A stretch of DNA of 64,000 nt from Paenibacillus sp. FSL H8-0537 (GTDB lineage Bacteria > Bacillota > Bacilli > Paenibacillales > Paenibacillaceae), in NCBI RefSeq assembly GCF_038051995.1, contig NZ_CP150290.1:15001-79000 (forward strand), read 5' to 3'. The notes beneath the pieces are model-generated. The model ran no database searches. It was not told where the DNA came from and saw only the letters and a list, made by a program, of their open reading frames with translations. Made by a program: the position numbers and the translations under genes. Shown here piece after piece: positions 13,229 through 63,767 of the stretch; the first letter of the stretch is position 1, and each line of letters begins with the position of its first letter.

Positions 13229-13267
13229 TCATTTCAGAGCTTTAAATTTTTGTATTGGATTTCCAGT

Positions 13268-13460
13268 TTGCGCTTAATCTTCGAACTTTGGAGAGCGGGG
13301 GAACCAGGCACGATGCTGTGAGGAAATTGCGGATCACATTGCACGCGCACTTGAATTTCTTCTAGGGGTGAATTTGGCGGGGATTGCCATGAGCATTCTT
13401 CCGACGATAGGGCAGCTCTCTTGCCCGAACCCGACAGCTAACCTCGTAAGCGTTTATAGA
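13268..13460 (+). promoter_or_regulatory. Cyclic di-AMP riboswitch (ydaO/yuaA class)
   Basis: The class's conserved blocks occur in order: GGGGGAACC (13297-13305), GGGGTGAAT (13365-13373) and CCCGAACCCGACAGCTAACC (13424-13443), followed by TCGTAAGCG. The closing stem pairs CGCTTA (13271-13276) with TAAGCG (13447-13452). This class binds c-di-AMP and usually shuts off genes for cell-wall hydrolases and osmolyte or potassium transport. The downstream gene is the cell-wall protein yabE and a terminator sits between them, consistent with an off switch. It explains most of the 636-nt gap after tatD; nothing else was recognised there apart from the promoter and terminator. Confidence 0.92.
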
Positions 13461-13513
13461 GAGTGATCAACCTCGTGCATCCACCATTCCTGAATAGTCT
13501 ATTCGACGTTCCC

Positions 13514-40987: not shown

Positions 40988-41004
40988 TGTTAGATATATT
41001 GACA
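40988..41004 (+). promoter_or_regulatory. GlnR/TnrA-type box overlapping the urtA -35 element
   Basis: TGTTAGATATATTGACA has the full TGTNA-N7-TNACA core. Its last six bases are the -35 element of the urtA promoter. Confidence 0.55.
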
Positions 41005-49848: not shown

Positions 49849-49865
49849 TGTTAGTTATTGTTACA
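49849..49865 (+). promoter_or_regulatory. GlnR/TnrA-type box upstream of ansA (distal)
   Basis: TGTTAGTTATTGTTACA has the full TGTNA-N7-TNACA core, 52 bp upstream of a second box. Confidence 0.5.
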
Positions 49866-49900
49866 CAACTAGGTATAAAGTCACTTGTTCTATTTTTATA

Positions 49901-49917
49901 TGTGAGATAATATAACG
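49901..49917 (+). promoter_or_regulatory. GlnR/TnrA-type box upstream of ansA (proximal)
   Basis: TGTGAGATAATATAACG matches 16 of 17 consensus positions. It overlaps a possible promoter (TTGTTC 49885-49890, 17 bp, TAATAT 49908-49913); a second -10-like TATAAT lies at 49928-49933. Confidence 0.5.
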
Positions 49918-51157: not shown

Positions 51158-51174
51158 CGTAAATTAATGTGACA
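51158..51174 (+). promoter_or_regulatory. GlnR-type site I of the first guanidine operon
   Basis: CGTAAATTAATGTGACA matches the TGTNA-N7-TNACA core at 9 of 10 defined bases and is centred 15 bp before the -35 element, about 51 bp before the predicted start. Confidence 0.5.
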
Positions 51175-51180
51175 TGAGTA

Positions 51181-51210
51181 TTGACAGGGTGTTGGGCGCC
51201 CTACTATAAT
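51181..51210 (+). promoter_or_regulatory. Sigma-A promoter of the first guanidine operon
   Basis: TTGACA (51181-51186), 18 bp, TATAAT (51205-51210). Predicted start near 51217, about 65 nt before the riboswitch. Confidence 0.8.
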
Positions 51211-51219
51211 ACAGATAAA

Positions 51220-51236
51220 TGTAAGGTTATCTAACA
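51220..51236 (+). promoter_or_regulatory. GlnR-type site II of the first guanidine operon
   Basis: TGTAAGGTTATCTAACA has the full core (16 of 17 consensus positions) and lies just downstream of the predicted start, centred near +11. Confidence 0.65.
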
Positions 51237-51279
51237 AAAGATCATATAGTTCCTATGCTGGCTGTACACATCGGGAACG

Positions 51280-51415
51280 ACAAGCTGTCTAGGGTTCCGT
51301 TGACAGGTCGCAAGCGTGCCTCGCGTCTTATCAAGTCTGGTCCAAGAGACGGCGTACGGCGAGTGCGCATCCATTGAGGGATGGCGGCAAGCGCTGTATA
51401 ACACGGAAGGATAAA
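51280..51415 (+). promoter_or_regulatory. Guanidine-I riboswitch (ykkC) before the ABC importer genes
   Basis: Conserved ykkC-class blocks appear in order: CTAGGGTTCCG (51289-51299), TCTGGTCCAAGAGAC (51336-51350), and ACACGGAAGGATAAAAGCC at the 3' end (51401-51419). This class binds guanidinium and turns genes on by blocking a terminator. It fills most of the 477-nt gap between the asparaginase and the binding-protein gene. Confidence 0.95.
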
Positions 51416-51455
51416 AGCCTGGGAGATCACAATCTCCCGGGCTTTTGTTTTTTTT
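51413..51455 (+). terminator. Expression-platform terminator of riboswitch 1
   Basis: AAAAGCCTGGGAGAT pairs with ATCTCCCGGGCTTTT around a 4-nt loop, followed by a long T tract. Its 5' arm overlaps the aptamer's 3' end, as needed for switching. Confidence 0.9.
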
Positions 51456-51466
51456 AGAAATATAAA

Positions 51467-51557
51467 AATGTATGAGTTACACGCTTATACATGCTTATAT
51501 TTCACCCGCGAAACGGTAGCTTTGCCGCCAGAGGATGGCGACAGCTGTTACGCTTAG
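51467..51557 (+). repeat. Copy C of the dispersed hairpin-plus-core repeat
   Basis: A diverged hairpin (AAATATA...TATATTT) is followed by GCGAAACGGTAGCTTTGCCG and GAGGATGGCGACAGC. It closely matches copy B at 53754-53855. Confidence 0.6.
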
Positions 51558-51609
51558 CCCAATCTCTGGTTATTCAGGAGTTGGAGCGTTAAAGACAAGG
51601 GGTGGGACA

Positions 51610-52626
51610 ATGAGACAGTCGTGGAAGGTTTGGCTCTTGGGGTTGCTTGTCGTGTCGATGTTTGTTGTTGTGGGTTGTGGTAGTTCAGGTGGCAAAGCGG
51701 GAGAAGGAGGAGCGGGTGAGCCGATTACAATTGCCCTGAGTCCGTGGCCGGGTTGGTATATGTGGTATGTAGCTGAGGAAAAAGGTTTTTTTGAAAAGCA
51801 CGGAGTCAACGTAAAGCTGGAGTTTTTCCCGGTGTACAGCGACTCGCTGCAAGCTTTGGCAACGGGAAGGGTAGATGCAAACAGCCAGACGCTGAGCGAT
51901 ACGCTCGCTCCTTTTTCAAAGGGAATTCCGCTTAAAGCGGTTCTGGTCAACGATAACTCCTTCGGCGGCGATGCTATTGTCAGCAAACCGGAAATCCAGT
52001 CCATACAGGATTTGAAGGGGAAAACAGTTGCGACGGAGCTTGGTACTGTCGATCATTTGCTGCTGCTGACTGCCTTGGCGCAAAATGGCATGAAGGAAGA
52101 AGATGTGAACTACGTCAATATGACTGTAAATGATGCGGGCCCAGCTTTTATTTCCGGAAAGTCTGATGCTTCTGTTCTATGGGAGCCGTTCCAGACAATT
52201 GCGGTGAAGGAAGGAAAGGGCAAGGTGTTGTTCTCCTCTAAAGATACGCCGGGACTTATACCGGATTTGCTTGTGTTTCGTGAAGAGGTTGTGCAGAAGC
52301 GTTCCGCTGAAGTGCAGAAGGTTGTGGATGCCTGGTTCGATGCGCTTGCGTATTATGAGGCGAATCAGGAAGAGGTGCTGAAGCTGCTGGCGACCAAGGC
52401 GGAGACGACTCCGGAGGATCTCAAGTTGGGGTTTGATGGCATCAAGCTGTTCTCTCAAGCGGATAATCTTCACGCCTTCGAGAAGCGTGATGAATATACC
52501 TCGCTTGAATATACGGCGGGACAGACGGCGGGTTTCTTGCGCGGACTCGATATGGTCGGTGACATTGATGACGTGAGCGGACTGTTCGACGCGCAATTCG
52601 TCAAAAATACATCAGCAGGGAAGTGA
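51610..52626 (+). CDS. NitT/TauT-type substrate-binding lipoprotein (putative guanidine importer)
   Basis: A 338-aa NMT1/SsuA-like binding protein with lipobox VVGC. Mature protein starts near EPITIALSPWPGWYMWYVAE and contains GRVDANSQTLSDTLAP and KTVATELGTVDHLLLL, typical of the nitrate/taurine/aliphatic-sulfonate import family. ATG 51610 has GGGGTGGGA upstream; a longer reading from 51535 is rejected. Control by a guanidine-I riboswitch points to guanidine or a related compound as ligand; transport itself is inference. Confidence 0.88.
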   Translation: MRQSWKVWLLGLLVVSMFVVVGCGSSGGKAGEGGAGEPITIALSPWPGWYMWYVAEEKGFFEKHGVNVKLEFFPVYSDSLQALATGRVDANSQTLSDTLAPFSKGIPLKAVLVNDNSFGGDAIVSKPEIQSIQDLKGKTVATELGTVDHLLLLTALAQNGMKEEDVNYVNMTVNDAGPAFISGKSDASVLWEPFQTIAVKEGKGKVLFSSKDTPGLIPDLLVFREEVVQKRSAEVQKVVDAWFDALAYYEANQEEVLKLLATKAETTPEDLKLGFDGIKLFSQADNLHAFEKRDEYTSLEYTAGQTAGFLRGLDMVGDIDDVSGLFDAQFVKNTSAGK

Positions 52627-53432
52627 TGACGATGGAGGCAGTTCGGCGGCGGAAGCCGCATCGGATACAGATTTTTAAAGATATTGGCTCCCGGGCGTTT
52701 ATGATTACGGCTAGCTGCTCTTTTCTGCTCCTTCTGCTGCTGTGGTCGCTGCTTAGCTATACGGAGGCTGTGAACCCTGTATTTTTGCCGAAGCCGCATG
52801 TCGTGCTTGCGACCTTTATAGAGCTGCTCGGCAGCTCTGATTATTGGAATCATATTGGCGTTAGCTTATTTCGCGTTATGTCAGGCTTCCTGTTGGCATG
52901 TGCGCTAGGCATTCCTATCGGAATATTGGCTGGAACGTTCAAATTCGGCGAAGCGCTAATAGAGCCTCCGATGGAATTTATCCGCTACATGCCAGCGGTT
53001 GCTTTTATTCCGCTTATTATGGTTTGGGCGGGGATTGGCGAGTGGGCCAAGGTATTGCTTATTTTTATCGGCTGTTTCTTCCAGCTCGTGCTGATGGTGG
53101 CTGACAATACGCGAAGGGTGTCGCAGGATTTGCTGCAAGCTTCCTTCACGCTTGGGGCGGGGCGCTGGAAGGCAATCGAGACGGTGCTCATACCGGCGAT
53201 CCAACCGCAATTAATGCATACGATGCGGCTTATTCTCGGCTGGGCGTGGACGTATCTAGTTGTGGCGGAGCTGGTTGCTGTCAACAGCGGGCTTGGATAT
53301 GCCATCATGAAGGCGCAGCGATTTTTGAATACGGAGGAGATTTTTGTAGGTATTTTCGTTATTGGGCTGCTGGGCTTGATCAGCGATCGCATTTTTGCCT
53401 TTTTGAACCGCAGATTGTTCCCTTGGGTATAG
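52626..53432 (+). CDS. NitT/TauT-type ABC transporter permease (putative guanidine importer)
   Basis: A 268-aa permease with six predicted membrane helices and the EAA-like loop SQDLLQASFTLGAGRWKAIE near residue 160. It overlaps the binding-protein stop codon by 1 nt (ATG 52626; ATG 52632 is better spaced from AGGGAAG and is the alternative). No ATPase gene follows; the matching SsuB/TauB-type ATPase is 9.5 kb downstream at 62925 under the same kind of promoter. Confidence 0.87.
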   Translation: MTMEAVRRRKPHRIQIFKDIGSRAFMITASCSFLLLLLLWSLLSYTEAVNPVFLPKPHVVLATFIELLGSSDYWNHIGVSLFRVMSGFLLACALGIPIGILAGTFKFGEALIEPPMEFIRYMPAVAFIPLIMVWAGIGEWAKVLLIFIGCFFQLVLMVADNTRRVSQDLLQASFTLGAGRWKAIETVLIPAIQPQLMHTMRLILGWAWTYLVVAELVAVNSGLGYAIMKAQRFLNTEEIFVGIFVIGLLGLISDRIFAFLNRRLFPWV

Positions 53433-53753
53433 GGTTTGATGACGGAGGTTCCGTTATTTTAGCTTTTGATCCTATTTCGGGACGTAAGCGGACAGGAGAT
53501 CCGCTATCTTCCTAATAACCTCTTCAAGATGGCTTTTGGCAGCGCATTAGCTGCTCCTGAGTCCGCTGCCTAGCCATAAGCCTTGATTCTGTTGAAATAG
53601 CGGCTGCTGTGTCCGCCAAGTATTTCTTTGTGCAGGGTGTGAACCCCTGAAACGAAGATTGCGATTCCTAGTTGAAAAAAAGAATATCAGTGCCTGCTGT
53701 ATACGAAGCTCGCAGTCCGAGAGGAAGAATTCCTTGAGGCCTGTGGGCTTTTT
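53433..53753. other. Intergenic region with repeat-like sequence, no gene seen
   Basis: No credible coding sequence. Near 53449-53516 two short related segments occur (ACGGAGGTTCCGTTATTTTA and GCGGACAGGAGATCCGCTAT), the kind of short imperfect repeats found between genes. A weak hairpin (AGGCC...GGGCTTTTTTT, about 53736-53756) may end the permease transcript. Confidence 0.4.
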
Positions 53754-53855
53754 TTAAAATATAGGAAAGTATATGATTTTCCCATCCTTTCTCTATATTT
53801 CAACGCGAAACGATAGCTTTGCCGCCAGAGGATGGTTTCAGCCATTTGCGCTTGT
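53754..53855 (+). repeat. Copy B of the dispersed hairpin-plus-core repeat
   Basis: The hairpin AAATATAGGAAAG...CTTTCTCTATATTT is nearly identical to copy A at 12199-12243 and is followed by GCGAAACGATAGCTTTGCCG and GAGGATGG, shared with copy C at 51507-51540. Confidence 0.65.
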
Positions 53856-53922
53856 TTGCATATAAATGTAAAAAGTGATATCATAAATATATCAAATTAA
53901 TACTAAAGGGGTGTTCTGACAG

Positions 53923-54795
53923 ATGAAAGAGTTCAAAGCTTGGCATGTAAATGGATTTTTGGCATTGCTGGTTGGCGTACTGTCGCTTGTTGGGGGAATC
54001 ATTCTGATTGTGTTTGGCGCATCGGGCGTACAGCCGGACTTCCTTTCGATTATTGCGGGTGGATTGCTGATACTTGTTTTTATTATCGCTTCGTCCTCGC
54101 TGACGATTGTGCAGCCGAATGAAGCGAAGGTCATTACCTTTTTTGGAAAATATATCGGTACGGTAAGAACAGCAGGGCTGTGGATGACGCTTCCGCTGAC
54201 GAACAAGCAGAAGGTATCGCTTAAAGTGCGCAACTTTAACAGCCATACGCTGAAGGTCAATGATGCCGACGGCAATCCGATTGAAATTGGGGCGGTTGTT
54301 GTGTTTAAAGTAACGGACACGTCCCGTGCGAGCTTCGATGTCGACAATTATGAGCGTTTCGTGGAAATTCAAAGCGAGACGGCTGTTCGCCACACGGCGG
54401 CACAGCACCCATATGATACGCATACGGATGAGAACGCGATGTCTCTGAGAGGCAATTCCGAGGAAGTGGCAGAAGAGCTGCTCAAGGAGCTGCAAAGCAG
54501 GCTTGCTGTTGCGGGAGTTGAAGTAATAGAGACGCGGCTGACGCATCTGGCTTACGCCCCGGAAATTGCTAGTGCAATGCTGCAAAGGCAGCAAGCAACA
54601 GCGATTGTGGCAGCTCGCCAGAAAATCGTTGAAGGCGCGGTTGGTATGGTGGATGCGGCATTGAAGCAATTGGAGGATAGTGGAATTGAGCTGGACGTGG
54701 AGCGGCGTGCGGCGATGGTCAACAATCTGATGGTGGCGATCGTATCGGATCGTTCTGCCACGCCGGTCATTAATACCGGGTCTTTGTACACGTAG
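53923..54795 (+). CDS. SPFH/Band 7 domain membrane protein
   Basis: A 290-aa stomatin/prohibitin-like protein. Two hydrophobic segments at the N-terminus (about residues 11-33 and 38-60) anchor it; the SPFH domain follows (LTIVQPNEAKVITFFGKYIG ... ), then a helical region rich in Ala and Arg (SAMLQRQQATAIVAARQKIV). Such proteins form oligomers in membrane microdomains. AAAGGGG lies upstream of ATG. It precedes a small ribbon-helix-helix gene by 13 nt. Confidence 0.88.
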   Translation: MKEFKAWHVNGFLALLVGVLSLVGGIILIVFGASGVQPDFLSIIAGGLLILVFIIASSSLTIVQPNEAKVITFFGKYIGTVRTAGLWMTLPLTNKQKVSLKVRNFNSHTLKVNDADGNPIEIGAVVVFKVTDTSRASFDVDNYERFVEIQSETAVRHTAAQHPYDTHTDENAMSLRGNSEEVAEELLKELQSRLAVAGVEVIETRLTHLAYAPEIASAMLQRQQATAIVAARQKIVEGAVGMVDAALKQLEDSGIELDVERRAAMVNNLMVAIVSDRSATPVINTGSLYT

Positions 54796-54808
54796 GGAGC
54801 TGTCGATA

Positions 54809-55009
54809 ATGGGAAAAGAAAAGAAAGCTTTTCCGCTCCGACTGAATCCTGACATTCACCGCGCTCTGGAGCAGTGGGCTAATGAGGAATTTCGCAGCGT
54901 CAATGGTCATATTGAGTTTTTGCTGCGCGAAGCGCTTAGTCGTTCGGGCAGGCTGCCGAAGCCGCGGCCAGCCGAGCCTCTGGGAAATGCCGGTGAGCCT
55001 AAGGAATAG
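54809..55009 (+). CDS. Arc/ribbon-helix-helix DNA-binding-like protein
   Basis: A 66-aa protein whose first 45 residues (FPLRLNPDIHRALEQWANEE, FRSVNGHIEFLLREAL) fit a ribbon-helix-helix fold of the Arc/CopG type. The tail is Pro-rich. It follows the SPFH gene after 13 nt and is probably co-transcribed; pairing of these two genes suggests local regulation or a shared role, but no toxin-antitoxin partner is seen. Confidence 0.75.
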   Translation: MGKEKKAFPLRLNPDIHRALEQWANEEFRSVNGHIEFLLREALSRSGRLPKPRPAEPLGNAGEPKE

Positions 55010-55072
55010 AGAGAAGCAGATAAAGAGCCTGATTATAGGTAAGAAACAAAGCCAAACAGCAGCTGCCGTTCA

Positions 55073-55405
55073 ATGACGATGGAGCTGCTGTTGAGATTTG
55101 GCTACAATGAGGGCGGACAGGTTATTAGGCATGTTTTGTTTGCTGTTGATTTGGTGCAGATGAAGGTCGTTCCTTATGAGAGTGCGGAGATGGGCGAAGT
55201 GTATATGTACACGCCGACTTGGCCTATCGTCGACTACCAGTGGATTGATAATAATCAGTTTTGGGTGGCCTCGGCTGATTTGCAATCATCTGAAGCTGAA
55301 TTTGAAGCTGTTCAAAATTGGTTGGCTTCAAGTGATAGGAATATCAAGAAGGTAACCATTTTGTTGAACCAAGAGGAGTTGTTAGACGCTTACTCGATGC
55401 CTTAG
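55073..55405 (+). CDS. Hypothetical protein
   Basis: A 110-aa soluble, acidic protein of no recognised family. Aromatic-rich middle section (YTPTWPIVDYQWIDNNQFWV). The start is ATG 55073 or 55079 and the ribosome site is weak. Located 63 nt after the ribbon-helix-helix gene. Confidence 0.55.
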   Translation: MTMELLLRFGYNEGGQVIRHVLFAVDLVQMKVVPYESAEMGEVYMYTPTWPIVDYQWIDNNQFWVASADLQSSEAEFEAVQNWLASSDRNIKKVTILLNQEELLDAYSMP

Positions 55406-55450
55406 AGCAGGAATGCTAAGGTGTCTAAAATCGGTGTGTCCTTTATATTA

Positions 55451-55467
55451 TGTTATGTTATCTAACA
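55451..55467 (+). promoter_or_regulatory. GlnR-type site I of the second guanidine operon
   Basis: TGTTATGTTATCTAACA has the full TGTNA-N7-TNACA core and is centred 15 bp before the -35 element, about 51 bp before the predicted start. Confidence 0.68.
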
Positions 55468-55473
55468 TTATTG

Positions 55474-55503
55474 TTGACAAATGATATTCAATAGTCATAT
55501 AAT
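55474..55503 (+). promoter_or_regulatory. Sigma-A promoter of the second guanidine operon
   Basis: TTGACA (55474-55479), 18 bp, TATAAT (55498-55503). Predicted start near 55510. Confidence 0.8.
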
Positions 55504-55511
55504 CTATTTAA

Positions 55512-55528
55512 CGTTAGGTTATATGACA
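55512..55528 (+). promoter_or_regulatory. GlnR-type site II of the second guanidine operon
   Basis: CGTTAGGTTATATGACA matches 9 of 10 core bases and is centred about +10, just downstream of the predicted start. Confidence 0.52.
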
Positions 55529-55566
55529 AATGAATATAGGTTTCCGTTGCAAAATATACTGGAAAC

Positions 55567-55706
55567 AAATCGCTGTCTAGGGTTCCGTTAGCTGCTGATG
55601 GGGTACGCCTCATCTGTTAATAGCTAAGTCTGGTCCGAGAGACGGCATGCAGTCGAATGCGAGTAATGCTGGCGCGAATCGCTGTATAACACGGAAGGAT
55701 AAAAGC
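55567..55706 (+). promoter_or_regulatory. Guanidine-I riboswitch (ykkC) before the guanidine degradation genes
   Basis: Blocks CTAGGGTTCCG (55577-55587), TCTGGTCCGAGAGAC (55629-55643) and ACACGGAAGGATAAAAGCC (55690-55708) are in the ykkC order. Guanidine binding is expected to turn the operon on. Together with the promoter and the two nitrogen-regulator-type sites it fills the 363-nt gap before the next gene. Confidence 0.95.
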
Positions 55707-55738
55707 CTGGGAGATCAAATCTCCCGGGCTTTTTTTAT
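55701..55738 (+). terminator. Expression-platform terminator of riboswitch 2
   Basis: AAAAGCCTGGGAGAT pairs with ATCTCCCGGGCTTTT over a short loop, followed by a T tract. Stem sequence is the same as at riboswitch 1. Confidence 0.9.
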
Positions 55739-55768
55739 TTATATTTACACGGGGAGGCGAAAGAGGGA

Positions 55769-56497
55769 ATGAGTGAAGAATGGAGCAAAACGATTGAAGC
55801 CGGAGGCAAGTGGTCGGGTGTTATTGGACGGGGGAAGCTTGTTCGTTTAACCGCCCTTGAAGGTGGGGCGAATGTGTCTGCCATGCTGTTCAGCGCTCAA
55901 GATTTGAATGAACGCTACAATATGCCAGATACACTCAAGGCGCAGCATACCTCACATCTAACGAAAGGGAATGTGCTGATGAGCGACAATGGACGTGCGA
56001 TGGTCAGTATTGTAGAGGATGGACTTGGCTGGCATGACCCGCTTGGCGGCTATACAAGCCGCGAGCTGACGGATGAGCGCTATGGCGCGACGACTTATCA
56101 GGCACTTCGAAATGGCTGGCTGCGAAGCGGGCAGGAAAATTTGGCGGTTGAGCTGGTGCGAAGCGGCATGGGTGTCAGGGATTTGATGCCGGTCATCAAC
56201 TGGTTTTCTAAAATCAGCTGCGATGAGCAGGGTGATATGCATTATGCCGAAAATCATTGCCTGGCAGGTGCTAGTGTGACGCTTCGAACAGAAATGGATG
56301 TGCTGCTGGTGCTGTCGAATACGCCTAATCCGCTTGATGCTAGAACGATTTATCCTTCGGTTCCGGTGGGGGTAGAAGTGTTCGCGGCTGAGACAGTAGA
56401 TCGAGAACATGACTATTGTGTAAATTATCGTGCGGAAAACCGCCGTGCGTTCGAAAATACGTGGGAATACAACCTTTTATGGGGAGGCGGATGGTGA
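55769..56497 (+). CDS. Urea-carboxylase-associated protein / carboxyguanidine deiminase subunit (first)
   Basis: A 242-aa DUF1989-family protein of the type always found with urea or guanidine carboxylase. Two such proteins together (CgdA and CgdB) are known to deiminate carboxyguanidine to allophanate. Visible conserved stretches are IGRGKLVRLTALEGGANVS near residue 19, MSDNGRAMVSIVEDGLGWHD and HYAENHCLAGASV. GGGGAGG lies some 15-20 nt upstream, with AGAGGGA closer to the ATG. It overlaps the next gene by 1 nt. Confidence 0.87.
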   Translation: MSEEWSKTIEAGGKWSGVIGRGKLVRLTALEGGANVSAMLFSAQDLNERYNMPDTLKAQHTSHLTKGNVLMSDNGRAMVSIVEDGLGWHDPLGGYTSRELTDERYGATTYQALRNGWLRSGQENLAVELVRSGMGVRDLMPVINWFSKISCDEQGDMHYAENHCLAGASVTLRTEMDVLLVLSNTPNPLDARTIYPSVPVGVEVFAAETVDREHDYCVNYRAENRRAFENTWEYNLLWGGGW

Positions 56498-57147
56498 TGG
56501 CAGCATTTAACTTGGTAGAAAGCTCGCGTAAGGCGGCGGAAGCTGTGTACAGTAAAACCATTTTGGCCGGCGATGGCTGGATGCATGATTTGCTGCCTGG
56601 ACAAGTGCTCAGAATTGTCGATCTCGAAGGTAATCAGGCGGCGGATACACTATTTTACGATGCGGATCAGCCGGAAGATCATTATAGCGCCATAGCAACG
56701 ATTGCAGGGCAAGCCAATGTGTATTTAACGGCAGGCTCGGTGCTGCGGGCAGAGTCGGGCAAGCCGCTCGTAACGATCGTTGCCGATACATGCGGACGCC
56801 ATGATACGATTGGCGGCTCCTGCTCTGCACAGAGCAACACGGTGAGATATGCCCATGAAAAACTGCATATGCACAACTGCCGCGATACGTTCATGCTCCA
56901 GCTGGCGAAACGGGAGGCTGGCTATACAAAGCGCGATTTGGCGCCTAATGTGAACTTTTTCATGAATGTGCCAGTAACAGCCGAGGGCGGCTTGCAGTTT
57001 GCGGACGGCGTATCCGCGCCTGGCTACTACGTAGAAATGCAATCGCATGGCAGGGTGACAGTGCTCATCAGCAACTGTCCGCAGTTGAACAATCCTTGCA
57101 ATGCCTATAACCCAACATCTGTGCAGGCACTAATCTGGAACGAATAA
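56497..57147 (+). CDS. Urea-carboxylase-associated protein / carboxyguanidine deiminase subunit (second)
   Basis: A 216-aa DUF1989 partner of the preceding protein. The LRIVDLEGNQAADTLFYDAD segment and the cysteine/histidine-rich DTCGRHDTIGGSCSA and HMHNCRD segments fit a metal-dependent deiminase. Start is ATG 56497, 9 nt after GGGGAGG, sharing a base with the previous stop (TGATG). A longer reading from 56416 is rejected. Confidence 0.87.
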   Translation: MAAFNLVESSRKAAEAVYSKTILAGDGWMHDLLPGQVLRIVDLEGNQAADTLFYDADQPEDHYSAIATIAGQANVYLTAGSVLRAESGKPLVTIVADTCGRHDTIGGSCSAQSNTVRYAHEKLHMHNCRDTFMLQLAKREAGYTKRDLAPNVNFFMNVPVTAEGGLQFADGVSAPGYYVEMQSHGRVTVLISNCPQLNNPCNAYNPTSVQALIWNE

Positions 57148-57170
57148 ATGAATGCGAAGGAGAGGTTGCT

Positions 57171-60100
57171 ATGTTTGCAAAGGTACTGATCGCAAATCGC
57201 GGCGCAATTGCCGTGAGAATCGAGCGCACGCTGCGCAAGCTAGGTGTTCAATCTGTCGCTGTCTATACGCAGGCGGATCAAGACAGCAGGCATGTCGATG
57301 ACGCCGATGAGGCGGTGTGGATCGGGGATGGGCCTGCCAAAGAAAGCTACTTGAATGCGGAGCTCATTCTTCAGACGGCGATAGCGTCAGGTGCGGAGGC
57401 GATTCATCCGGGCTATGGATTTTTGAGCGAAAATGCAGACTTTGCCCGTGCCTGTGCCGAACGCGGTATCGTATTCATCGGCCCGACCCCGGAGCAAATG
57501 GAGCAGTTTGGGCTTAAGCATTCCGCCAGAGAGCTGGCGCAGAAGGCTGGCGTGCCAATGCTGCCGGGAACCGACCTGATTGACAGTGTGGAGGAAGCAG
57601 TACTGCATGCACAGCAAATCGGATATCCGGTTATTCTGAAAAGCACGGCAGGCGGCGGCGGTATCGGCATGCGGGTGTGTGACGATGAGCAGGCGCTGCT
57701 TGCTGCCTATGAGGGTGTTCGTCATCTGGCGGAGACGAATTTCAAGAACGGCGGGATGTTTTTGGAAAAATACATCGCCAAGGCACGTCATGTCGAGGTG
57801 CAAATTTTCGGTAACAGCTACGGTGAGATTGTTGCACTTGGTGAACGGGATTGCTCCGTGCAGCGGCGCAATCAGAAGGTGTTGGAGGAAAGTCCGGCTC
57901 CCCATTTGCCCGCTGCCGTTCGCGCGGCCATGATGGAATCGGCAACGAGGCTTGCAGCCGAGGTGGGCTACCGCAGTGCGGGGACGGTGGAATATTTATA
58001 TGACCCCGAAACGGCTGCGTTTTATTTTCTCGAAGTGAACACACGGCTTCAGGTGGAGCATGGCGTGACGGAAGAGGTGCTTGGGCTCGATCTGGTGGAA
58101 TGGATGGTGCGGGAAGCGGCGGGTGAGCTGCGCGAGCTGCAATCATTAGTGGGGGAGCCGCAGGGACATAGCATTCAGGCTCGCATCTATGCGGAGGATT
58201 GCTTGCAGGGCTTCCGTCCAAGTGCGGGGCAGCTGGATCAAGCGAGATTTTCAGAGCAGGCGCGCAATGAAACATGGGTGAGGGACGGCATGACCATTAC
58301 GACGCTGTATGACCCGATGCTGGCAAAAATCATCGTGCATGGTGCGGATCGCGAGGATGCTCTGCGGAAGCTGGGTGGGGCGCTGGCGCAGACGCGGATG
58401 TACGGCCTGACGACGAATTTACAGTACGTGCAAGCGCTGCTTGCGGATGCAGCTTGCAAGGAGGGGCTTGTTTATACGCGGATGCTGGAGGATTTTGCGC
58501 CAGTTGAGCAAGCCATCGAGGTGCTGGACGGCGGCGTGCAGACGACGGTGCAGGATTGGCCCGGAAGAGTTGGACATTGGGATGTTGGTGTGCCGCCATG
58601 CGGACCGATGGACCCTTACTCGTTCCGCCTAGGCAACAAGCTGCTCGGCAATTCGGATCAGGCGGCGGGCCTTGAGCTGACGCTGCGTGGCGGTTCTTAT
58701 CGCTTCCGCGATGCGATGCGATTTTGCCTGACGGGTGCTGATATGCAGGCGAAGCTGGATGGCGAGCTTGTACCGCTGTATGCGCCTTTACTGGCGAAGG
58801 CGGGGCAGGTGCTCAGCTTCGGCGAGGCAGCCGCTGGGCTGCGGACGTATTTGCAGATTGCAGGCGGGCTGGATATGCCGCTCATTCTGGGCAGTGCCGC
58901 AACGTTTACGCTGGGCGGCTTTGGCGGTCATGGCGGCCGGGCGCTGCGAGCTGGTGATGTGCTGAGAGTTCACGGTGCTGGCAGCACGCTATCTCATGAA
59001 ATAGCGGTCTCTGAACGACTGCCGAAACAGCAATCTGAACAGCAATCTGAGCAGCTTTCTGAACAACGTTCGGAGCTGCCGCGAGACGGTTTATCCGTAC
59101 CGTTGGCAGAGGGGCTTCCTCCTGCTTACCGTCCGGCTATTGGGAGACAATGGACGATTGGTGTCATACCGGGACCGCATTGTACAGAGGAATTTTTGCG
59201 GCCGGAGTATTTAAAGCAATTAACCGATACGCAGTGGGAGGTTCACTTTAACAGCTCCCGTACAGGAGTGCGTTTAATTGGTCCTGCGCCGCTTTGGACT
59301 AGAGAGGATGGCGGAGAAGCGGGGCTGCATCCTTCGAATATTCACGACAATGCCTATGCTGTGGGAACGCTTGATTTGACGGGCGATATGCCGATTCTGC
59401 TGGGGCCCGATGGCCCGAGCCTGGGTGGTTTCGTATGCCCGGTCACGACGGCTTCCGCTGAGTTTTGGAAGCTGGGGCAGCTGCATCCCGGCGACAAGGT
59501 TTATTTTCAGCTATTGACGCTTGAAGAGGCTGATGCGCTGCGCGATGCGCAGGAAGCTAATTTGCGGGCGCTGGGTGAAGGAGACACGGCGTTTCTGCAA
59601 GAGCTGACGCTTCCTGAGCCTAGGAAGCAGTTGCTTTCTCCATCCTATCCGCTGCTCGTTAGCGAGGAGGCGGGGCGGCGGTTTCCTATCTCCATTCGGT
59701 GCAGCGGGGATGAAAATTTGCTCGTGGAATATGGCGAGCTGAAGCTGGACATTTTGCTCCGTTTTCAGGTGCATGTGCTGATGGAGGCGATTCGGGCGGA
59801 TGCTTCGCTTCCTGTACTCGATCTGACGCCGGGCATTCGCTCGCTGCAGGTGCATATCGATCGCACTCGCATCACGGCCTACGATGCTTGCCGCCGCTTG
59901 CTGGAGCTGGATAGCGCGCTGCCGCCGCTTGAAACCATTGAAGTTCCGTCGCGAATTGTCCGGCTCCCGCTTTCGTGGGATGATCCGTCCACGCAGCTGG
60001 CGATAGACCGCTATCAGCAAACGGTGCGTCCGGATGCTCCTTGGTGCCCAAGCAATATAGAGTTCATTCGGCGCATCAATGGTTTGGATGGTAGGCAGGA

Positions 60101-60920
60101 TGTGCAGCGAATCGTTTTCGATGCCAGTTATCTTGTGCTAGGTTTGGGCGATGTGTATTTGGGCGCACCTGTTGCGACGCCAATTGATCCGCGGCATCGT
60201 CTGGTGACGACTAAATATAATCCGGCGCGAACGTGGACGCCTGAAAATGCCGTCGGAATTGGCGGAGCTTACATGTGTGTCTATGGCATGGAAGGGCCGG
60301 GCGGCTATCAATTTGTTGGGCGCACGATTCAAATGTGGAACAAGCTGCGAACGACGAAGAGCTTTACGGCGGGCAAGCCGTGGCTGCTGCGGTTTTTTGA
60401 CCAAATTCAGTTTTATCCGGTTGCTGCGGATGAGTTGTTGAAGATGCGTGAAGACTTTCCACGCGGGCGCTTTGATGTCGAAATTACGGAGACAACCTTC
60501 GAGCTGAAAGACTATTTGGCGTTTCTCGCTTCTATTGAACAAGATGCGGAGTCGTTCCGTGCTACCCAGCAGGCTGCGTTCAAGGCCGAGCGCAAGAGCT
60601 GGAAGGCGCTAGGGCTTGCGGAATATGTCTCCGAGCAGGATGGCGCGGCTCAAAGCGAAGAAGAGGAGCTGCCTGCTGGGGCGGAGGCCATTCGCTGCAA
60701 TATGCCGGGAAGTGTGTGGAAGGTGCTTGTACAGCCGGGCGCTCGAGTGAAAAAGGGCGATACGCTTATTATTGTAGAAAGCATGAAAATGGAGTTTTCC
60801 CAGCAGGCATCCTGTGATGGGGTTGTTGCCTCGATCTATGTCAAGCCTGGTGATGAGGTTCATACCGGCCAGCTTGTTGCTGGCATTATGCAAGTCCAGA
60901 AAGAGGTGTCGCTCGTATGA
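57171..60920 (+). CDS. Biotin-dependent guanidine/urea carboxylase
   Basis: A 1249-aa multidomain carboxylase. Biotin carboxylase domain first (residues about 1-450; FAKVLIANRGAIAVRIER, HPGYGFLSENADFARAC, EVNTRLQVEHGVTE), then KipA/AHS2-like (about 465-800) and KipI/AHS1-like (about 830-1100) carboxyltransferase halves, then a biotinyl domain with the VESMKMEF motif (biotinylated Lys1206). It uses ATP and bicarbonate. The riboswitch and the two deiminase-type genes point to guanidine rather than urea. A Gln/Ser/Glu-rich insert of near-repeats (about residues 619-636) sits between domains. AGGAGAGG lies upstream. Confidence 0.9.
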   Translation: MFAKVLIANRGAIAVRIERTLRKLGVQSVAVYTQADQDSRHVDDADEAVWIGDGPAKESYLNAELILQTAIASGAEAIHPGYGFLSENADFARACAERGIVFIGPTPEQMEQFGLKHSARELAQKAGVPMLPGTDLIDSVEEAVLHAQQIGYPVILKSTAGGGGIGMRVCDDEQALLAAYEGVRHLAETNFKNGGMFLEKYIAKARHVEVQIFGNSYGEIVALGERDCSVQRRNQKVLEESPAPHLPAAVRAAMMESATRLAAEVGYRSAGTVEYLYDPETAAFYFLEVNTRLQVEHGVTEEVLGLDLVEWMVREAAGELRELQSLVGEPQGHSIQARIYAEDCLQGFRPSAGQLDQARFSEQARNETWVRDGMTITTLYDPMLAKIIVHGADREDALRKLGGALAQTRMYGLTTNLQYVQALLADAACKEGLVYTRMLEDFAPVEQAIEVLDGGVQTTVQDWPGRVGHWDVGVPPCGPMDPYSFRLGNKLLGNSDQAAGLELTLRGGSYRFRDAMRFCLTGADMQAKLDGELVPLYAPLLAKAGQVLSFGEAAAGLRTYLQIAGGLDMPLILGSAATFTLGGFGGHGGRALRAGDVLRVHGAGSTLSHEIAVSERLPKQQSEQQSEQLSEQRSELPRDGLSVPLAEGLPPAYRPAIGRQWTIGVIPGPHCTEEFLRPEYLKQLTDTQWEVHFNSSRTGVRLIGPAPLWTREDGGEAGLHPSNIHDNAYAVGTLDLTGDMPILLGPDGPSLGGFVCPVTTASAEFWKLGQLHPGDKVYFQLLTLEEADALRDAQEANLRALGEGDTAFLQELTLPEPRKQLLSPSYPLLVSEEAGRRFPISIRCSGDENLLVEYGELKLDILLRFQVHVLMEAIRADASLPVLDLTPGIRSLQVHIDRTRITAYDACRRLLELDSALPPLETIEVPSRIVRLPLSWDDPSTQLAIDRYQQTVRPDAPWCPSNIEFIRRINGLDGRQDVQRIVFDASYLVLGLGDVYLGAPVATPIDPRHRLVTTKYNPARTWTPENAVGIGGAYMCVYGMEGPGGYQFVGRTIQMWNKLRTTKSFTAGKPWLLRFFDQIQFYPVAADELLKMREDFPRGRFDVEITETTFELKDYLAFLASIEQDAESFRATQQAAFKAERKSWKALGLAEYVSEQDGAAQSEEEELPAGAEAIRCNMPGSVWKVLVQPGARVKKGDTLIIVESMKMEFSQQASCDGVVASIYVKPGDEVHTGQLVAGIMQVQKEVSLV

Positions 60921-62752
60921 CGGCTGTTACTTTTCCTGAAGTGCTCACGATGCAGTGGCTGCGTGAAAAATATACCACCAAGCAGCTTGCGCCTGAGGCG
61001 GTTATTGAAGAAATCATCAGCCGTTCCGAGCGAGATGCGGCTATGAATATCTGGATTACGCCGCCTTCTCTTATGCAGCTGCGCCCTTATCTGGAGCGGC
61101 TCGCGCTGCTTGATCCGGCACAAACGCCGCTCTGGGGCATCCCTTTCGCAGTCAAGGACAATATCGACGTTGCGGGCTTTCCGACAACGGCAGCTTGTGC
61201 GGAATTTGCCTATACGCCAGGCGAGAACGCCACTGTAGTGGAGCGTTTGGTTCAGGCGGGGGCTATCCCGCTAGGCAAAACCAACCTCGACCAATTTGCC
61301 ACCGGCTTGGTCGGCATGAGAAGCCCTTACGGCGAGGCGCATAATGCTTTGCGCCCCGAGCTGATCAGCGGCGGCTCGAGCTCCGGCTCGGCTGTCGCTG
61401 TTGCCCGCGGCCAAGCGGTATTCTCGCTTGGCACAGACACCGCTGGCTCCGGCCGTGTGCCTGCCGCGCTGAACGGGCTTGTCGGCTTTAAGCCGACCCT
61501 TGGCGCGTGGCCGACTAAGGGCGTCGTGCCTGCCTGCGCCAGTCTGGACTGTGTGACGGTATTCGCCCACAGTATAGATGATGCGCTCGCCGTGGACAGC
61601 TCCGCTCGCGGCCTGGATCCTGCCGATCCATGGTCAAGGGACGTTGTACGCTCTGCCAGTGGTCTGCCGTCCAAGCTGTATTTGCCTCAGGAACGTCCAG
61701 CCTTTTACGGACCATTCGCTGACGAATATGCCCGGGCATGGGAGGGCTCAATTCAGCAATTGCAAGCGCTTGGGATCTCCATTGAATATGTGGATTGCAG
61801 CTTGTTTGCAGAAGCGGCAGCTGAGTTGTATGAAGGTCCTTGGGTAGCGGAGCGCTGGGCTGATCTGAGCGAATTTATCGAAAGCCACCCTGGGGCTTTA
61901 GTGCCTGCAACGGAGCAGGTGCTTCGTTCGGGAGCGGCAGAGCGCCATACGGCAGCTTCTGTATTTGCTTCCATGCATCGCTTGCAGGCTTTCAAGCTGG
62001 CGGCGAAATTCCTGCTCGGTGATGCGGTGCTGGTAATGCCGACCTGTGGCGGAACGTGGACGCGGGAGCAGGTTCGCGAGCAGCCGATACAGACGAATAC
62101 GGCAATGGGAGCTTATACAAACCATTGCAATTTGCTTGATTTGAGCGCGGTTGCCCTTCCTTCGGGAGAGGCGGCGGAAAGGCTTCCTTTTGGCATAACG
62201 CTGTTCGCTTTAGCAGATCAAGAGCATTTGCTTGAAGGCTTGGGAAGATTGTATGCCGACCGGACAATGGAGTCTAGGTCGTCGGAACGAGCGAAATGCA
62301 GTCTGAATAACGCTATTGCAAAGGTGTCATCTGAAGCATCTGAAGCATTCGACTCCGATCAGACGACGCTCGTCGCTGTGTGTGGTCTCCATATGCGCGG
62401 ATTTGCTTTGGAGCAGCAAATGCTCGCCTTCGAAGCGAGCTTTGTCAGGGAAGCGAACACGGCGGCTAAGTACGAGCTGATCAAGCTCGATACGACGCCT
62501 GCAAAGCCTGGCATGATCAAGCTGGAGCAGGGCGGTGCATCGGTCGCGGTGGAGCTTTGGCGAATGCCGCTTTCGCGTTTCGGTGCGTTTGCAGCCCTTA
62601 TACCGGCACCTCTGGGGATAGGGAAAGTGGAGCTGGAAGGTGGTGAAGAGGTGCCAGGCTTCATCTGTGAAGGTTATGCTCTTGAGCGGGCGGAGCGGAT
62701 TTCTGAGTATGGCGGCTGGAGGGAATATCGGCGAGCAATGAGTCTAATGTAA
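60917..62752 (+). CDS. atzF: Allophanate hydrolase
   Basis: A 611-aa amidase-signature enzyme splitting allophanate into CO2 and two ammonia. The catalytic triad is visible: Lys80 (AVKDNIDVAG), cis-Ser154 (SGGSSSGSAV) and nucleophile Ser178 (DTAGSGRVPA). The C-terminal domain (about residues 470-611, PGMIKLEQGGASVAVELWRM, GFICEGYALE) is the small AtzF-type domain. It overlaps the carboxylase gene by 4 nt (ATGA). A nitrogen-regulator-type box overlaps its stop codon. Confidence 0.92.
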   Translation: MTAVTFPEVLTMQWLREKYTTKQLAPEAVIEEIISRSERDAAMNIWITPPSLMQLRPYLERLALLDPAQTPLWGIPFAVKDNIDVAGFPTTAACAEFAYTPGENATVVERLVQAGAIPLGKTNLDQFATGLVGMRSPYGEAHNALRPELISGGSSSGSAVAVARGQAVFSLGTDTAGSGRVPAALNGLVGFKPTLGAWPTKGVVPACASLDCVTVFAHSIDDALAVDSSARGLDPADPWSRDVVRSASGLPSKLYLPQERPAFYGPFADEYARAWEGSIQQLQALGISIEYVDCSLFAEAAAELYEGPWVAERWADLSEFIESHPGALVPATEQVLRSGAAERHTAASVFASMHRLQAFKLAAKFLLGDAVLVMPTCGGTWTREQVREQPIQTNTAMGAYTNHCNLLDLSAVALPSGEAAERLPFGITLFALADQEHLLEGLGRLYADRTMESRSSERAKCSLNNAIAKVSSEASEAFDSDQTTLVAVCGLHMRGFALEQQMLAFEASFVREANTAAKYELIKLDTTPAKPGMIKLEQGGASVAVELWRMPLSRFGAFAALIPAPLGIGKVELEGGEEVPGFICEGYALERAERISEYGGWREYRRAMSLM

Positions 62753-62764
62753 ATAAACCTAACA
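62748..62764 (+). promoter_or_regulatory. GlnR-type site I of the ATPase promoter
   Basis: TGTAAATAAACCTAACA has the full core and is centred 15 bp before the -35 element, about 51 bp before the predicted start. It overlaps the allophanate hydrolase stop codon. Confidence 0.62.
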
Positions 62765-62770
62765 TATAAA

Positions 62771-62800
62771 TTGACAAACCATAAAAAATTACGGTATTCT
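62771..62800 (+). promoter_or_regulatory. Sigma-A promoter of the ATPase gene
   Basis: TTGACA (62771-62776), 18 bp, TATTCT (62795-62800). Predicted start near 62807. Confidence 0.7.
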
Positions 62801-62809
62801 AATTGAAAT

Positions 62810-62826
62810 TGTTAGATTATCTAACA
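62810..62826 (+). promoter_or_regulatory. GlnR-type site II of the ATPase promoter
   Basis: TGTTAGATTATCTAACA is a perfect match to all 17 consensus positions and a perfect palindrome, centred near +11. Confidence 0.75.
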
Positions 62827-62924: not shown

Positions 62925-63767
62925 TTGAATACAGCGACGGTAACAGCAAAGGAACAGCCGCAGGGGAAGGCACTGGCGCAAAAAGCGGAAGCTGCCGCTC
63001 CGGCAGCTGGCAGCGGAACGATTGAAATTCGCGATCTGCATAAGGTATACGAGACGAGAAAAAGCAGCTTTGAAGCGCTGCGCGATATTCAGCTCACCAT
63101 CGGCTCCAATGAATTTTTAACGATACTTGGCCCGTCCGGCTGCGGCAAATCTACGCTGCTTCGCATGGTCGCCGGGCTTGATGAGCCTTCGAGCGGCATG
63201 CTTGCCTTGGATGGAGAAGAAATCGTCGGCCCGGGCGCTGAGCGAGGCATGGTATTTCAGGGCTATACGCTGTTTCCGTGGCTGACGGTGCGTGAAAATA
63301 TTGAATATGGTCTCAAGCTGCAAGGGATACCAACACTTGCACGCCGTGCCATCTCCAATTATTGGCTCAAAATCATTCGTCTTGAGCGATTCGACAAGAC
63401 TTATCCAAAGCAGCTTTCTGGGGGCATGAAGCAGCGGGTTGCCATTGCCAGAGCGCTTGCCAATCGTCCAAAGGTACTGCTGATGGATGAGCCATTTGGC
63501 GCCTTGGATGCCCAGACAAAGCTGGAGATGCAGGAGATGCTGCTGGATGTGTGGCAAAAGGAGAAAACCACCGTGCTTTTCATTACGCACGATATTGATG
63601 AAGCGATCTTTCTGTCGCAGCGCATTGTCGTAATGGGGGCTGGCCCAGGGCGGATTTTAAAGCAATTTGAAGTGAATTTGCCTGCAGAGCGCTCGCCGGA
63701 GGTACGTGAGCACAAAGCGTTTTTAGCTTTAAAGCGGGAGCTTGCCGAACTGCTGAAGCATGATTGA
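62925..63767 (+). CDS. SsuB/TauB-type ABC transporter ATPase
   Basis: A 280-aa ATPase. Walker A GPSGCGKST near residue 69, signature LSGGMKQRVAIARAL, Walker B VLLMDEPFGALD, and the H-loop ITHDIDEAIF. An Ala/Lys/Gln-rich 35-residue N-terminal extension precedes the domain. It starts at TTG with GGAGGCG upstream. It is the type that would pair with the binding protein and permease at 51610-53432, and its promoter has the same two-site layout, but no riboswitch is seen in its 172-nt leader. Confidence 0.88.
   Translation: MNTATVTAKEQPQGKALAQKAEAAAPAAGSGTIEIRDLHKVYETRKSSFEALRDIQLTIGSNEFLTILGPSGCGKSTLLRMVAGLDEPSSGMLALDGEEIVGPGAERGMVFQGYTLFPWLTVRENIEYGLKLQGIPTLARRAISNYWLKIIRLERFDKTYPKQLSGGMKQRVAIARALANRPKVLLMDEPFGALDAQTKLEMQEMLLDVWQKEKTTVLFITHDIDEAIFLSQRIVVMGAGPGRILKQFEVNLPAERSPEVREHKAFLALKRELAELLKHD

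Follow-up and report, generated by a model that had tools for sequence, protein, structure and literature searches.

Paired GlnR-type boxes at the promoters of a Paenibacillus guanidine gene cluster point to nitrogen control of guanidine uptake and breakdown

The three promoters of the guanidine import and degradation cluster of Paenibacillus sp. FSL H8-0537 are each flanked by two GlnR-type boxes in an almost invariant arrangement, and sites of this type on guanidine import and degradation promoters are conserved over the Bacillales and tied to assimilation, not to export. The cluster lies in a stretch of 64,000 nucleotides (contig NZ_CP150290.1, positions 15,001 to 79,000 of the forward strand), hereafter the window, whose numbering is used below. 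Judged from the sequence, control of these promoters by GlnR is very probable. The box motif, TGTNAN7TNACA, is a symmetric 17-bp sequence of the GlnR/TnrA type, and the elements of the three promoters are as follows:

51158..51174, + strand: upstream GlnR-type box of promoter 1; one mismatch (C for the first T)
51181..51210, + strand: core of promoter 1 (TTGACA, 18 bp, TATAAT)
51220..51236, + strand: downstream GlnR-type box of promoter 1; perfect
55451..55467, + strand: upstream GlnR-type box of promoter 2; perfect
55474..55503, + strand: core of promoter 2 (TTGACA, 18 bp, TATAAT)
55512..55528, + strand: downstream GlnR-type box of promoter 2; one mismatch (C for the first T)
62748..62764, + strand: upstream GlnR-type box of promoter 3; perfect; overlaps the end of the allophanate hydrolase gene
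62771..62800, + strand: core of promoter 3 (TTGACA, 18 bp, TATTCT)
62810..62826, + strand: downstream GlnR-type box of promoter 3; perfect; no riboswitch after it

A previous sequence-only reading had proposed these six boxes, and all were found where it had put them; its description of them as pairs of TGTNAN7TNACA is exact for four of the six, the boxes at 51158 and 55512 each having one mismatch that it did not mention. The geometry that it reported holds throughout. In all three promoters, exactly 15 bp separate the centre of the upstream box from the first base of the -35, the box ends 6 bp before TTGACA, and the -35 and -10 hexamers are 18 bp apart. The downstream box starts 9, 8, and 9 bp after the -10 in promoters 1, 2, and 3, which puts its centre 23, 22, and 23 bp downstream of the first -10 base, and the two boxes of a pair are spaced by 61-62 bp (61 bp in promoter 2).

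Six perfect motifs occur in the window against 0.53 expected, a number reached in none of 100 shuffles; four of them are boxes of the guanidine promoters and the other two precede urtA and an asparaginase gene. Over the whole 7.0-Mb genome there are 97 perfect motifs versus 59 for the backwards control. When pairs with at most one mismatch in total were counted at a spacing of exactly 62 bp, the genome yielded three: promoters 1 and 3 and one further place, L184 (G000:C1:1706534-1706612), which lies between a reductase gene and a divergent gene. The reductase is a flavin reductase that by eye resembles the start of the nitrite reductase NirB, Pfam giving reductase domains only. Looser searches were abandoned: 62-bp pairs with up to three mismatches numbered 20 versus 19 in the control, for which reason a loose pair alone is uninformative, and the upstream module alone (box, 6 bp, TTGACA; up to two mismatches, both strands) was found in 68 places versus 32, and is therefore too noisy for naming a regulon.

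Downstream of promoter 1, a guanidine-I riboswitch precedes the genes of an SsuA-family binding protein and a permease. Downstream of promoter 2, a second guanidine-I riboswitch precedes cgdA and cgdB (UAAP1 and UAAP2) and the genes of a carboxylase of the urea carboxylase family and an allophanate hydrolase, and promoter 3 leads directly to the transporter ATPase gene:

51278..51427, + strand: guanidine-I riboswitch aptamer of promoter 1 (RF00442, 70.7 bits, cut-off 63); terminator hairpin within 51409-51450 overlaps its 3' end
51610..52626, + strand: ABC transporter substrate-binding protein, SsuA family; start chosen by eye
52623..53432, + strand: ABC transporter permease
55566..55715, + strand: guanidine-I riboswitch aptamer of promoter 2 (RF00442, 72.9 bits); terminator hairpin from about 55700 overlaps its 3' end
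55769..56497, + strand: cgdA (UAAP1, TIGR03425)
56542..57147, + strand: cgdB (UAAP2, TIGR03424); start chosen by eye within the open reading frame 56416-57147
57171..60920, + strand: carboxylase, urea carboxylase family (TIGR02712); guanidine carboxylase from context
60917..62752, + strand: allophanate hydrolase
62925..63767, + strand: ABC transporter ATP-binding protein

Because of the riboswitches and the UAAP pair, we take the carboxylase to act on guanidine. Folding gave both riboswitches a strong hairpin with a U run at the end, overlapping the 3' end of the aptamer, a form that would make each of them an on-switch for guanidine. The claim that a riboswitch stands in series with the boxes is right for promoters 1 and 2 and fails for promoter 3, after which a search at a loose threshold returned only two unrelated matches far below the cut-off. 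A guanidine riboswitch directly accompanies the putative nitrogen gate at two promoters, and the third has no such combination.

The sites are conserved in orthologous promoters. Of 295 Paenibacillaceae genomes, 97 hold a UAAP1 gene above the curated cut-off, and the other 96 clusters were compared with that of the window; the genomes are related, such that the counts are not independent. A core-sequence rule found 99 riboswitches in the 97 clusters, 76 before cgdA, 21 before a binding-protein gene, and two before an ATPase gene, and in 86 of these 99 riboswitch-led promoters the 260 bp upstream contain a perfect box (29/37 in the genus of the window and 57/62 in nine other genera). Altering the spacer to N4, N5, N6, N8, N9, or N10 left 1, 4, 0, 1, 3, and 0 promoters with a match, respectively, the backwards motif and two permuted motifs left 0, 0, and 2, and control windows from the same loci contained a perfect box in 43 of 6164 cases. 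Counted by cluster, with two clusters cut by contig ends dropped, the perfect box is present in 88 of 95, and five control motifs in 0-4 of 95. Three of the seven clusters without it have a one-mismatch box at the promoter, and in a fourth, L120, a one-mismatch box lies 213 bp before the gene. Upstream of cgdA in L121, L128, and L129 we observed three boxes each, about 43-44 bp apart, a single one of the nine being imperfect (one mismatch); in two of these loci the third box overlaps the -10.

The complete layout is nearly confined to guanidine genes. We scanned the 295 genomes with a composite pattern derived from the window (box, 6 bp, TTGACA, 18 bp, TANNNT, 9 bp, box, the first letter of the second box being free) with up to three mismatches, the window itself being among the matches, and obtained 52 rows in 37 genomes against one match for the backwards pattern. 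At most one mismatch was present in 41 places, 39 of them before guanidine binding-protein, cgdA, or ATPase genes and two at scars of such genes, where the guanidine gene is truncated or missing. In one of these genomes (G043; L385, L387), a close relative of the species of the window, the cluster has been lost and promoter 3 with its two boxes remains together with the end of the ATPase gene. In the other (G103; L382, 167-245), the two-box promoter lies at the spoVT locus before a short leader; no ATPase gene is shown there, and six relatives carry the guanidine ATPase gene at this locus, so that this is apparently an orphan promoter. The 11 rows with two or three mismatches comprise the guanidine binding-protein promoter of L347, one reverse reading of a place already counted, and otherwise non-guanidine sites, one of them NirB-like. 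The expectation that the spacing is kept while the sequence between changes was borne out across genera. In 26 of the 39 composites (13 being removed as at least 85% alike), the N7 centres of the boxes carry 1.38 and 1.09 bits versus 0.38 for the 18-bp spacer, a comparison limited to these unselected columns, as those fixed by the pattern are biased.

We then compared genes for using guanidine with genes for expelling it. In a set of 70 riboswitch loci, whose 16 cgdA loci overlap the set of 99 riboswitches, a perfect box was found at all 16 cgdA loci, at none of 44 SMR exporter loci, and at nine of 10 others; the tenth, L344, reads as an SMR exporter, which brings the exporters to 0/45. The exporter locus L052, properly anchored, has no box. 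The nine others consist of six amino-acid-permease-type genes of cgdA clusters, the permease of L335, and two riboswitches divergent from cgdA (L035 and L042); the amino-acid-permease type was read directly in L037, the same gene was identified by Pfam in L108, and the rest were assigned by position. In the permease promoters (seven shown) the perfect box lies over the -10. Twenty further riboswitches in cgdA-holding genomes precede 18 exporters, none with a perfect box, one gene of the amino-acid-permease type, with a perfect box, and one gene of another binding protein, with a one-mismatch box only. Altogether, a perfect box was found before none of 63 exporter riboswitches of the Paenibacillaceae, and a one-mismatch site before five; all 63 exporter calls were rechecked by reading frame, and the three tested are SMR proteins by Pfam. 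The ykkC gene of Bacillus subtilis is an exporter gene too. That GlnR sites stand at guanidine-using and not at guanidine-expelling genes suggests that guanidine serves as nitrogen food when nitrogen is short. It is under debate whether free guanidine is mainly a toxin that cells have to export or a source of nitrogen, and these genomes give a testable answer.

The genome encodes a single GlnR of 136 residues, with the glutamine synthetase gene after it, whose DNA-binding domain matches that of B. subtilis GlnR (4r4e) with an E value of 7.1e-33 and that of TnrA with 5.7e-14. The next best match to GlnR in the genome is only 36% identical over 72 residues (E 8.5e-7), and thus the genome has no convincing TnrA. 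The same box motif also precedes amtB (a perfect and a one-mismatch box, 124 bp apart), glnR, the asparaginase gene, and urtA, where it overlaps the -35. That GlnR has no role and the palindromes serve a different regulator, or an RNA structure at the start of the transcript, is scarcely credible: ten MerR-domain genes are present in the genome and the transcript includes the downstream box, but N7 is the GlnR/TnrA spacing whereas the N6 version is absent from all 99 promoters, the closest MerR relative is as distant as just described, the motif stands before the nitrogen genes just listed, and the boxes track the presence of GlnR across taxa. A hairpin formed by the downstream box was rejected, as two such boxes fold no better than shuffles (z 0.05 and -0.37).

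Two of these additional sites belong to the window. A perfect box (40988-41004) lies over the -35 of the promoter preceding the operon of a urea-type ABC transporter (from urtA on; identified by eye), which fits simple repression. A perfect and a one-mismatch box, 52 bp apart, precede the type II asparaginase gene (49849-49917), and no clear promoter was found between them.

The taxonomic comparison covered 80 named loci, with groups assigned from record titles and a Paenibacillaceae part overlapping the set described above. A perfect box was present in 31/37 promoters of Paenibacillaceae and 18/23 of other Bacillales, in 1/16 of Clostridia, Negativicutes, and Sulfobacillus, in 0/1 of Actinobacteria, and in 0/23 of Gram-negatives. 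Of the 48 genomes outside the Paenibacillaceae, 35 were searched for GlnR. It was found at E below 1e-30 in 11 of 13 other Bacillales, with a weak match in Halalkalibacterium and no match in Bacillus sp. JCM 19041, in which the box is nevertheless present; none was found in 12 Clostridia or Negativicutes and none in nine Gram-negatives, and Sulfobacillus gave a weak match. All 24 sampled Paenibacillaceae have GlnR, 22 of them without a second match at E 1e-12, while 9 of the 13 other Bacillales gave more than one GlnR-like match, as TnrA would. Box occurrence runs in step with GlnR presence. The only perfect box among the 16 promoters of Clostridia, Negativicutes, and Sulfobacillus (Ruminiclostridium hungatei, L263 5139) occurs in a genome with no GlnR match and is possibly due to chance.

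Of 18 of the 23 promoters from other Bacillales, read from the box on, 11 carry TATACT at +46 and three at +47, and the hexamer at +23 is degenerate. No second box with up to one mismatch was found 58-66 bp downstream in any of the 23. In TnrA-activated promoters of B. subtilis, the box lies at -49 to -51, and a weak -35 with a box at that distance has the look of an activator-dependent promoter. Where TnrA and GlnR share the work, the upstream box would suffice, and the GlnR-only family would often add a downstream one; this is not a rule, since 15 promoters of Paenibacillaceae have the upstream box only.

Box positions were classified in 102 promoters, the 99 riboswitch-led ones and three riboswitch-free ATPase promoters. 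Upstream and downstream boxes occur together in 28, an upstream box with one over the -10 in two, an upstream box only in 15, a box over the -35 with a downstream box in 12, and a box over the -35 only in six, the assignments of this last class being weak; L089 6783, placed in it, also reads as an upstream and downstream pair, each box having one mismatch. Another 29 promoters have a perfect box whose position is different or unassigned, three have one-mismatch boxes only, and seven have no box. Measured against the best promoter, the start of a perfect site lies exactly 23 bp before the -35 in 41 of 118 cases and exactly 11 bp before it in 14; the likeness of TNACA to TTGACA helps the 11-bp peak but not the 23-bp one. 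The distance from the -10 to the downstream box is +13 or +14 in promoters with a box over the -35 versus +14 or +15 in the two-box form. As the downstream box is fixed while the upstream box moves by 12 bp, each is placed relative to the polymerase and the promoter, not to the other box. The two-box form appears to be one variant of a wider GlnR gate with boxes over the -35 or the -10 elsewhere, and the family offers natural promoters for relating the position of a GlnR box to activation or repression.

The same measurements bear on DNA looping, in which GlnR dimers would be bridged to each other or via glutamine synthetase and the distance of 61-62 bp (about six turns) would outweigh each position. 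Spacings of 61 and 62 bp do dominate (10 and 18 pairs with at least one perfect box), but 47 and 48 bp recur too (9 and 5), the downstream box keeps to the -10 while its partner shifts, and the data of the authors who studied the nif promoter did not support looping, according to the excerpts of their report (PMC6191146; the other papers cited here are likewise represented by excerpts). We consider looping very unlikely.

The boxes are probably GlnR operators that bring the uptake and breakdown of guanidine into the nitrogen-limitation response, activating at about -51 and repressing at about +11. From the layout we infer GlnR binding, both of these effects, and a two-input logic. When nitrogen is limiting, a GlnR dimer bound to the upstream box would help RNA polymerase at the promoter, whereas in nitrogen excess GlnR stabilised by feedback-inhibited glutamine synthetase would hold the downstream box, at the transcript start, and block transcription. 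Transcripts from promoters 1 and 2 would then have to pass the terminator of the guanidine-I riboswitch, so that full expression would require both low nitrogen and guanidine; promoter 3, for the transporter ATPase, would be gated by nitrogen alone. The division of labour between the boxes, already proposed by the sequence-only reading, is likely and as a whole finds partial support: the upstream box would be an activator site because it keeps one fixed distance from the -35, is the only box in 15 promoters, and precedes a degenerate -35 in other Bacillales.

Several observations weigh against this reading. The -35 is the consensus TTGACA, which need not require an activator. The exact two-box form occurs in only 28 of the 102 promoters, 18 being assigned a box over the -35 and 29 others having a perfect box elsewhere or at an unassigned position, and because of this variation one logic does not fit the whole family. 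A perfect box is missing from 13 of the 99 riboswitch-led promoters, 10 of which have no box or one-mismatch boxes only; some riboswitches lie inside an operon. In B. subtilis, ykkC has a TnrA box and an in vivo TnrA peak with no effect on expression (PMC4475385). The geometry of the nif promoter also differs. In Paenibacillus polymyxa WLY78 two GlnR sites flank the nif promoter, the upstream one activating and the downstream one repressing (PMC6191146), and the guanidine promoters are alike in having two sites of the same motif family around one promoter and, very probably, the same single regulator. However, 118 bp separate the two nif sites, site I lying 58 bp upstream of the -35, whereas here the boxes are 61-62 bp apart, the upstream one is 6 bp from the -35, and a riboswitch is added at two of the three promoters; the parallel with nif drawn by the sequence-only reading needs correcting on this point. 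It is the amtB promoter of this genome, with 124 bp between boxes, that resembles nif and not the guanidine promoters.

These points leave room for a GlnR that only represses, occupying both boxes in nitrogen excess at a promoter active by default, as in B. subtilis glnRA, which would give nitrogen control without activation. The consensus -35 of all three promoters, the plain repressor look of relatives in which a box covers the -35 or, in permease promoters, the -10, and the proposal, in the excerpts of PMC3412718, that B. subtilis GlnR is a repressor only all agree with it, but the upstream box lies outside the -35 at a fixed 23 bp (the 41 perfect sites), occurs without a partner in 15 promoters, and lies equally far from the degenerate -35 of other Bacillales, and P. 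polymyxa GlnR activates nif from an upstream site (PMC6191146). Repression alone is an unlikely explanation. A broader picture seems only slightly better than even: a nitrogen gate throughout the Bacillales in which importers and degraders would be under GlnR or TnrA together with the guanidine riboswitch, and Paenibacillaceae exporters under the riboswitch only; in the mostly TnrA-less Paenibacillaceae, GlnR alone would activate from -51 and repress from +11 through the compact promoter, which they would have almost only for guanidine genes, and in some lineages the upstream box would have shifted by 12 bp to lie over the -35, converting dual control into repression.

Among known systems, the P. 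polymyxa GlnR regulon comprises nitrogen genes with one or two sites (amtB-glnK, glnQHMP, ansZ, and others); several accepted sites start with CGT, as do the boxes at 51158 and 55512, and, unlike here, guanidine, carboxylase, and allophanate genes have no occurrence in the excerpted text (PMC9948412). The nearest prior report is the TnrA binding at B. subtilis ykkC mentioned above; that case is alike in placing a box at the promoter of a gene with a guanidine-I riboswitch (PMC4475385) and unlike the Paenibacillaceae exporter promoters, which lack a perfect box (0/63). In the excerpts, ykkC is not named in the GlnR study that matches the B. subtilis TnrA report (PMC4475385). The window shares the riboswitch class and enzyme set of the guanidine carboxylase pathway operons (PMC12508155; PMC12186494). 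A review names riboswitches as the only known guanidine receptors besides transporters and enzymes, and its excerpts make no mention of nitrogen limitation, NtcA, TnrA, or nitrogen regulation (PMC12186494). Among the matches listed in the open-licence literature on guanidine, ykkC, and urea carboxylase, as excerpted, no description of a GlnR/TnrA gate on guanidine genes was found.

Two further features of the window were noted. Between the two guanidine operons (53923-55405) lie genes of an SPFH-type protein and a small protein, both kept in the nearest relative (L124), and a c-di-AMP riboswitch was detected at 13261-13468 (84.7 bits).

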